A stretch of DNA of 64,000 bases from Thermococcus gorgonarius (GTDB taxonomy: Archaea; Methanobacteriota_B; Thermococci; Thermococcales; Thermococcaceae), in NCBI RefSeq assembly GCF_002214385.1, contig NZ_CP014855.1:248001-312000 (forward strand), written 5' to 3'. The notes under the pieces are model-generated. The model made no database searches and was not told the origin of the DNA. It saw only the letters and a program-made list of their open reading frames with translations. Below, in pieces: positions 24,080 to 43,708 of this stretch. Made by a program: the position numbers and the translations under genes. Every line of letters begins with the position of its first letter. Position 1 is the first letter of the stretch.

Positions 24080-24176
24080 ATATCATCCACCGTTTCTTCT
24101 TCCCCGGAGGATTTTTAAATATGCCAGTGGCTTTATGGTTGAGGTAAACTTTTAAATCCCGACTGGATATCCCAAC

Positions 24177-24242
24177 GGGCGATGGCGTCCGCCCGGGGCT
24201 TCGAGCCCGAACCGCCCGCAAGGGCTGATGACGCCTGTTCTC
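24177..24242 (+). ncRNA. Fluoride riboswitch (crcB motif)
   Basis: Conserved elements appear in order: GGGCGATG (24177-24184), P1 strand GCGTC, pseudoknot strand CGCCC (24190-24194) pairing with GGGCG, an inserted hairpin GGGCT-TCG-AGCCC, the AAC joint, P2 hairpin GCCC-GCAA-GGGC, the invariant CTGAT, and the closing P1 strand GACGCC (24230-24235). This matches the crystallised fluoride aptamers element for element, differing by the inserted hairpin. The promoter ACTTTTAAATC (24148-24158) puts the transcript start at about the first aptamer base. The 3' P1 strand CGCCT (24232-24236) can alternatively pair with AGGCG (24258-24262), which contains the ribosome site of the next gene, suggesting translation is switched on by fluoride. 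Confidence 0.93.
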
Positions 24243-24267
24243 CGCTAAAAAATTTGGAGGCGGTAGA

Positions 24268-25134
24268 ATGGGCTCGAAGCTAGACCTGCTCGGACGATAC
24301 GTTGATGTTAACTCTGCACTCAAGTATATTGAGGAAAGGAGGCACGAGGACGGTGGCTACTGCTTCGTGAGCGTCCTTAATGACACCAATGTGAACGACA
24401 CCTACTACGCCGTCAAGACCTACGAACTGCTCGGACTGGAAGTCCCGGAGAAGGAAAAGACAATCGAGTTTCTTGAGAAGGCCATCCAGCCCCAGACAGC
24501 CGTTGTTGCGATAGCCATGGCCCTCGAAAGCCTTGCAATACTTGGAGCTAAGGACATCGCCAAGGGGCACCTTGACATTGTTTACACCAAGTACAATCCC
24601 GTGGAAGGCAAGTTCGCCGTCGGTCTCGGCGGGAGCGAAGAGTTTGGAACGGCGACACCGCTTGAAGCTACGTACTGGGTCGTCAAAGCGTTCAGGGCCA
24701 TCGGGCATGACTTTTCAAAGGAGGAAAGGGATGTGATAAGGGCTTTCGTCATGAAGTTTAGGAAGGGGAACGGCTACGGCGTGAAGCAGGCGACAACAAC
24801 GATGACCTATCAGGCTCTTTACACCCTCTACGCCCTCGGCTACAGGCCCCCTAAAAGCCCACACTTCAGGAACTGCGAGCTATGCGGTGACTGGGGAGGC
24901 TTTACGGAGGTTCCCTACAGCCTGCCACCTTACCTTGAGCCGACCTTCTACGCCACTAGAGGTCTTGAGCTCCAGGGAGAAAGGCCAACCTGCCCGAGGA
25001 GACATATCTGGTTCATACGCCAGCTCCAGAATTCTAATGGAGGTTTCAGGCGTTCTTTGGAGCTCGGCATCTCAAACTTCCAGAACACCTACAGGGCTCT
25101 GGCTGTCGTGGACTCGATGAGCAGGTTCGTGTGA
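24268..25134 (+). CDS. Prenyltransferase/squalene-oxidase repeat protein under fluoride riboswitch
   Basis: 288 residues of alpha/alpha-toroid repeats: LKYIEERRHEDGGYCFVSVL, DTYYAVKTYELLGLEVPEKE, LEATYWVVKAFRAIGHDF and, near the end, LQNSNGGFRRSLELGISNFQ. The repeats resemble the beta subunit of protein prenyltransferases, whose repeats build an inner helical barrel. A CELCGDWGGF block at about residue 207 supplies two cysteines and resembles no canonical zinc site. No signal peptide or membrane helix. GGAGG at 24256-24260 is the ribosome site targeted by the riboswitch. The substrate is unknown; it is not a fluoride exporter (neither CrcB/Fluc nor CLC-F). Confidence 0.82.
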   Translation: MGSKLDLLGRYVDVNSALKYIEERRHEDGGYCFVSVLNDTNVNDTYYAVKTYELLGLEVPEKEKTIEFLEKAIQPQTAVVAIAMALESLAILGAKDIAKGHLDIVYTKYNPVEGKFAVGLGGSEEFGTATPLEATYWVVKAFRAIGHDFSKEERDVIRAFVMKFRKGNGYGVKQATTTMTYQALYTLYALGYRPPKSPHFRNCELCGDWGGFTEVPYSLPPYLEPTFYATRGLELQGERPTCPRRHIWFIRQLQNSNGGFRRSLELGISNFQNTYRALAVVDSMSRFV

Positions 25135-25137
25135 GCC

Positions 25138-25307
25138 ATGGACTTCGTCGGAGTAAGGCTCTCTGAGGCACTCCTAGCCGGGGATTGCCCAGTCCGCAGG
25201 GTGATGGAGAAGTTCGAGGAGAGGGCCAGAAGGGCAAGGAGTTCATGCTGAACCTCAGGAGGGAGCTGAGCCTTGAAGAACAGGGGGCTCTGAGAGAGGC
25301 TCGGTAG
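25138..25307 (+). pseudogene. Frameshifted small gene (about 56 codons before disruption)
   Basis: Starts ATG 25138, three bases after the prenyltransferase-like stop. Frame 0 reads MDFVGVRLSEALLAGDCPVR, then VMEKFEERARRARSSC and a stop at 25249-25251. Adding one base near 25234-25236 gives a continuous frame RARRAKEFMLNL, then RRELSLEEQGALREAR and a stop at 25305-25307, which reads far better as protein. This points to a one-base deletion, either real or a sequencing error. Function unknown; helical and charged. Confidence 0.45.
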
Positions 25308-25313
25308 TGGGAG

Positions 25314-25460
25314 ATGAAGATAACAGTCTGGGCAATACAGCCTTCCGGGATGCTTGCCGAGAACCGCAGGCTCAGAAGGGAGCTGGGTTTACCCTCTAAA
25401 GAGCACCCCGACGTTGAGGAAAGGATACGATACTACCTCAATTTTGGAAAGAAGGGATGA
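25314..25460 (+). CDS. Small protein, 48 aa, unknown function
   Basis: Reads MKITVWAIQPSGMLAENRRL, then RRELGLPSKEHPDVEERIRY and ends YLNFGKKG. It lies 6 bases after the disrupted gene and may belong to the riboswitch transcript. Ribosome site is weak (GTGGGAG close to the ATG). Cytoplasmic, strand followed by helices. No family recognised. Confidence 0.5.
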   Translation: MKITVWAIQPSGMLAENRRLRRELGLPSKEHPDVEERIRYYLNFGKKG

Positions 25461-43609: not shown

Positions 43610-43708
43610 CTTTCACACCTCTTCCTCGTTTGTGGTTCCCCCTCCCGGGGACATCCCGCGGGTTCGCCCCGCCAAGTCGAGCCGAGTTCGAGAATTGGTT
43701 TTTAAGGA

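Follow-up and report, generated by a model that had tools for sequence, protein, structure and literature searches.

Riboswitches of the fluoride class usually control an exporter of the CrcB/Fluc or CLC-F type, although this target is not strictly what defines the class. Translational fluoride riboswitches are known in bacteria. Outside this class, the btuB riboswitch of Escherichia coli also involves coding sequence. To our knowledge, experiments have been done on only a few native archaeal riboswitches. For the Thermococcales, two reports are of direct relevance: an 86-nt crcB RNA was described as lying 'surprisingly' upstream of TK0513 and not of TK0514 (crcB) in T. kodakarensis (Jager 2014, PMC4247193), and, according to papers that cite it, a later study turned a fluoride riboswitch from Thermococcales into a fluoride-inducible expression system (Speed 2018, AEM). 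The formate hydrogenlyase is also a known class of fluoride-riboswitch genes (PMC11139923). Since the TK0513 association dates from 2014 and the inducible archaeal system from 2018, the novelty of the locus discussed here is lower than supposed by the first-pass annotation, which had called a fluoride-response role for a prenyltransferase-like protein new or little described. The 2014 paper apparently gives the position only; the switch mechanism, the protein fold and the order-wide conservation come from the present analysis. Our search of the literature found no description of how this riboswitch controls its own gene. The association of the riboswitch with the toroid gene being already known, we think that the use of the first codons as a switching strand is the new part.

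The window, that is the whole stretch of 64,000 nucleotides of Thermococcus gorgonarius that was analysed, contains the features collected in Table 1. According to our analysis the locus is probably a translational ON fluoride riboswitch, with an expression platform that extends into the coding region of the regulated gene. Such a mechanism would be precise and testable, with protein-coding bases doubling as a regulatory strand.

Table 1. Features of the riboswitch locus, in coordinates of the window
Feature	Position	Strand	Evidence or remark
TATA box of the leader promoter, TTTTAAAT	24150-24157	+	Read from sequence
Fluoride riboswitch aptamer, Rfam RF01734	24169-24244	+	51.7 bits, gathering threshold 34, E 1.9e-11
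Pseudoknot strand 5', GGGCG	24177-24181	+	Pairs with CGCCC 24190-24194
P1 5' strand, GGCGTC	24184-24189	+	Pairs with GACGCC 24230-24235
Thermococcales-specific hairpin inside the aptamer, GGGGCTTCGAGCCCG	about 24195-24209	+	13-nt insertion relative to RF01734
Proposed anti-start strand A, GCTTCGAGCCC	24198-24208	+	Exact complement of 24270-24280
Proposed anti-start strand B, CCGCC	24212-24216	+	Overlaps P3 5' strand 24214-24217; complements 24259-24263
P3, GCCC	24214-24217	+	Pairs with GGGC 24222-24225 (from sequence)
Alternative strand, CGCCT	24232-24236	+	Pairs with AGGCG 24258-24262
Ribosome binding site, GGAGG	24256-24260	+	Read from sequence
Proposed occluded strand B, GGCGG	24259-24263	+	Overlaps ribosome site
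Putatively regulated gene, 288-aa alpha/alpha-toroid protein, TK0513 orthologue	24268-25134	+	Pfam PF00432, 41.5 bits
Proposed occluded strand A, GGGCTCGAAGC	24270-24280	+	G of ATG plus codons 2-5
Fragment left of the gene that follows in the operon, DUF6062 family by Pfam	25138-25221	+	tblastn E 6.6e-6 with intact orthologue
Fragment left of the operon gene for a ~140-aa protein, which precedes crcB in relatives	25314-25448	+	tblastn E 5e-12

The aptamer was found when the entire window was compared with all Rfam families by cmscan, from which its E value in Table 1 comes, and the alignment spans the complete model (positions 1-64) with the 13-nt insertion, an additional hairpin, placed after the pseudoknot strand. 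The Infernal and Rfam check that the first-pass annotation had proposed for its list of aptamer elements, including the hairpin inserted at this point, was answered by a score over the gathering threshold. The CTGATG element can be read from the sequence as well, and the copy is the single RF01734 match in the 1.67-Mb host genome. A set of 70 orthologous leaders retains the base pairs of the aptamer at 99%, and seven of these pairs show compensatory double changes, a number that was reached by none of 500 shuffles. Cells of P1 are paired in 100% and those of the pseudoknot in 98.8%, each with one compensatory pair, and the inserted element shows compensatory pairs in the same leaders when it is read as a hairpin. 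A chance aptamer at this position was rejected because of the E value and of the order-wide conservation. Judged by the covariance score over threshold and by a structure in which P1, P3 and the pseudoknot have compensatory support, the element belongs to the fluoride riboswitches, and we infer that this copy binds Mg2+-fluoride. It is similar to the rest of the class in P1, P3, the pseudoknot and the conserved core, and differs from it in the inserted hairpin, which is the proposed anti-start strand, and in a target that is a toroid protein and not an exporter.

In most orthologues the TATA box is found at an equivalent distance from the aptamer; here it lies ~26 nt 5' of the first pseudoknot strand, which would place the transcription start at ~24176-24177 and give a leader of ~91 nt. 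At the locus of G023, which we take to be T. kodakarensis, aptamer, toroid gene and crcB stand in the order expected of TK0513 and TK0514, and the leader counted from the base before GGGCG is exactly 86 nt, the length of the published crcB RNA. Elsewhere in the window Rfam gives one eL15-Euryarchaeota ribosomal protein leader on the minus strand (43629-43672, 35 bits), barely over its threshold.

The gene next to the aptamer is not the usual exporter: the toroid gene begins 23 nt downstream, and crcB of the host genome is 111 kb away. This partnership is kept in nearly the whole order. Among 94 Thermococcales genomes the aptamer was found in 88 and the toroid gene in 90, and in every one of the 88 aptamer-bearing genomes (88/88) the aptamer stands 12-44 nt 5' of the toroid gene. 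Restricting the count to genomes of high quality gives 72/74, and both exceptions agree with the linkage: in G080 the toroid gene is broken and the aptamer is absent, and G012 has an intact toroid gene with only a 3' remnant of the aptamer, GATGGCGCCTATTCT, on its 5' side. The G012 locus (L107, about 2128), where the TATA box and a toroid gene with the frozen codons discussed below remain, may be regarded as a natural riboswitch knock-out.

In relatives with an intact operon the order is riboswitch, toroid gene, DUF6062 protein, a ~100-aa protein, a ~140-aa protein and crcB, and in 72 genomes crcB has the same orientation as the aptamer and follows it at a distance of 0.9-3.9 kb. From this arrangement one could suppose that the riboswitch serves mainly crcB and that the toroid gene is a passenger heading the operon, which we hold to be very unlikely. 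In the host genome the aptamer remained with the toroid gene when it is compared with the distant crcB, and the same is true of six Pyrococcus-type genomes (G004-G009), in which a distance of 57 kb to 1 Mb separates crcB from the aptamer and the aptamer is still beside the toroid gene. In the window the intervening operon genes have decayed to remnants, but the toroid gene is intact, and its dN/dS of about 0.05-0.07 against most relatives indicates that it is under purifying selection. Additionally, crcB of T. kodakarensis has its own transcription start, according to the 2014 report (PMC4247193). Because crcB relocates and the intervening genes decay while the toroid gene stays intact, it is the toroid gene that appears as the constant partner of the riboswitch, in agreement with the TK0513 position given in that report. 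A conserved gene of unknown function is thus the likely primary fluoride-sensing target across an archaeal order, separable from the exporter. The relocated crcB of the host genome (L111, 1161-1577, minus strand) is followed by a DUF190 (P-II-like) gene.

Taken together, the inserted hairpin and the P3 strand beside it can form 11+5 bp with the ribosome site, the start codon and codons 2-5. The minimum free energy (MFE) fold predicted for 24175-24300 contains this helix at both 37 and 85 C, and a test of the RF01734 platform based on that predicted fold finds the 16-bp helix mutually exclusive with the aptamer. At 37 C the MFE is -56.2 kcal/mol, against -40.3 kcal/mol when the aptamer form is imposed; at 85 C the two values are -12.9 and -3.5, pseudoknot and ligand energy being counted at neither temperature. 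In the 70 leaders the strand A helix is paired in 96.4% of cells. The covariation of the switch helix as a whole is no higher than that of shuffles in these leaders, because the helix hardly varies. When codons 2-5 were synonymously recoded, the expected number of pairs between hairpin and start dropped from 16.8 in the native sequences to 3.6 in the 73 hairpin-bearing orthologues, and it was 3.7 native and 3.4 recoded in the 13 orthologues that have no hairpin.

A different platform had been put forward by the first-pass annotation, in which the 3' strand of P1, CGCCT, pairs with AGGCG and hides the ribosome site, and fluoride frees the site by closing P1. Both strands, as well as GGAGG, were located correctly (Table 1), the pairing is possible, with 98.9% of cells paired in the 70 leaders, its geometry is simple, and P1 commonly supplies the strand that switches. 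We nevertheless consider it unlikely as the main platform. It has only 5 bp and is missing from the predicted MFE fold at 37 or 85 C, where the 16-bp helix stands instead; the 70 leaders contain no double-sided change in it, and its conservation is uninformative, because the two strands are already constrained by P1 and by the ribosome site. In one leader, L053, alignment positions C41 and G119 have changed jointly to U-A, by which CGCCT:AGGCG is broken and the long helix, in its strand B part, is kept by compensation. The short pairing also leaves the frozen codons unexplained. Another helix, GCCTGTTCT:AGAATGGGC, was rejected as the main platform; it is paired in 98.1% but is broken without compensation in Pyrococcus-type genomes.

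We propose that the long helix is the OFF state. Without fluoride, anti-start strands A and B would pair with occluded strands A and B, and this pairing would dismantle the aptamer and hide the ribosome site together with the start. With Mg2+-fluoride bound, the pseudoknotted aptamer would hold the anti-start strands in their own hairpin and in P3, so that the start would be exposed and the toroid protein made. The translational ON logic of the first-pass annotation is in this respect supported by a predicted fold that sequesters the start, and the direction of the switch, with fluoride as the ON signal, is what this fold model would imply. The OFF helix is far more stable than the aptamer without its pseudoknot; the model therefore needs co-transcriptional kinetics or a strong stabilisation by ligand and pseudoknot. 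Ligand-free pairing would block initiation here as it does in other riboswitches that act on translation by masking the ribosome site or the start; the proposed switch differs in that codons 2-5 take part in the pairing and that the aptamer itself houses the anti-start strand, as a hairpin.

The start of the gene is frozen at the level of codons. Where the residue is kept, codon 2 is GGC in 81/81, codon 3 is TCG in 78/82 and codon 4 is AAG in 79/79 genes, compared with an average frequency of the commonest codon of 0.565 over conserved columns; TCG makes up only 12% of Ser codons in the rest of the toroid gene. A tree of 72 hairpin-bearing genes, 14 substitutions per site in length, places no synonymous change at codon 2 or at codon 3; at 111 other conserved codons the median is 17 and the lowest count is 3. 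The changes that are tolerated in the start region of hairpin-bearing genomes preserve pairing via G-U, as in AAG to GAG in five genomes. The start is changed only together with an altered hairpin (73/0/6/7; Fisher p 3e-7 without phylogenetic correction), and all five start-change events (5/5) are placed on branches that lack the hairpin, which account for 17% of the tree length (p about 1.6e-4). Both tests are only suggestive, because events are too few for the stricter independent-pairs test of whether hairpin and start are lost together (p 0.25-0.5).

The same codons could serve as an initiation enhancer, as a DNA- or protein-binding site or in a function of the N-terminus, with complementarity to the hairpin as a by-product. 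Six genomes retain the codons despite an altered hairpin, so another constraint on them is possible, and MGSKL is conserved at the protein level. Even so, such an explanation appears quite improbable to us, since the freezing sits at synonymous sites, the changes permitted in hairpin-bearing genomes are those that keep pairing via G-U, the start is altered only where the hairpin is altered, and a second riboswitch gene has a different frozen start that again matches a strand of its aptamer. For those who use this riboswitch as an expression tool, the reading of the first codons as a competing strand would mean that these codons are probably part of the switch.

The second gene encodes a NuoH-like (NuoH/HycD-like) subunit, assigned by Pfam NADHdh, which is part of a membrane hydrogenase-like operon. 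In fifteen Thermococcales genomes (loci L109, L110, L102, L056, L080, L090, L094-L100, L103 and L104) it is preceded by a second fluoride aptamer that lacks the inserted hairpin. All fifteen genes start with GTGACGCC (15/15), in which codon 3 may end in A, C or T, and the GACGCC of this start copies the 3' strand of P1 and is complementary to its 5' strand GGCGTC. Folding predicts the pairing of start and P1 with a probability of at least 0.75 in 7/15. If this reading is right, two unrelated genes would have independently adopted their first codons as the competing strand.

The toroid protein scores above the PF00432 cut-off of 26.5 bits, and its confident AlphaFold model (pLDDT 90.7, pTM 0.90) finds RabGGTase beta and squalene-hopene cyclases as the best Foldseek matches, the top RabGGTase match having E 4.5e-6 and TM 0.57-0.63. 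The protein thus has the alpha/alpha-toroid fold of prenyltransferase beta subunits, which it shares with RabGGTase beta, other prenyltransferases and class II terpene cyclases, and, as the first-pass annotation had recognised, it is neither CrcB/Fluc nor CLC-F. The designation of the protein as prenyltransferase-like holds for the fold; for the function it finds no support in the active site, where the signatures of the zinc site and of terpene cyclases are missing. For the prenyltransferase zinc site (Asp-x-Cys ... His), no invariant D-x-C is present in 23 diverse toroid members, whose only invariant Cys and His residues are C32, H26 and H246; unlike in prenyltransferases, there is no conserved zinc triad. 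At the position of the class II terpene cyclase motif DxDD, the aligned residues 41-45 read N-x-N-D-T versus D-x-D-D-T. The invariant arginines R24, R25, R261, R262 and R276, taken together with H26 and H246, suggest a putative ligand site, possibly for a phosphate-bearing ligand.

The family is found only in Thermococcales within the genomes and species searched, as far as such searches can tell. None of 21 other genomes of the phylum had a toroid relative, and two strict peptide patterns, which distant homologues could escape, gave 25 loci in 84,980 species, every one titled as Thermococcales or Thermococci. Nor does NCBIfam include a family for this protein. We suggest that it may aid fluoride tolerance, perhaps by binding a ligand that bears phosphate, rather than act as a protein prenyltransferase. 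A wider view, in which unrelated fluoride-regulated genes of Thermococcales each use their first codons as the switching strand and the toroid protein is an export-independent tolerance factor, is put forward here only tentatively, and we would lean against it.

Several Pyrococcus-type loci (L079, L082, L084, L087, L089 and L091-L093) have a covarying hairpin of ~58 nt fused directly 5' of the aptamer, with a stem GGAACC.../...GGTTCC and a conserved GARCCGAAACCGGYAACGGRAGTAGG inside. A search of Rfam with this hairpin gave no match, and its core recurs five times elsewhere in G012.
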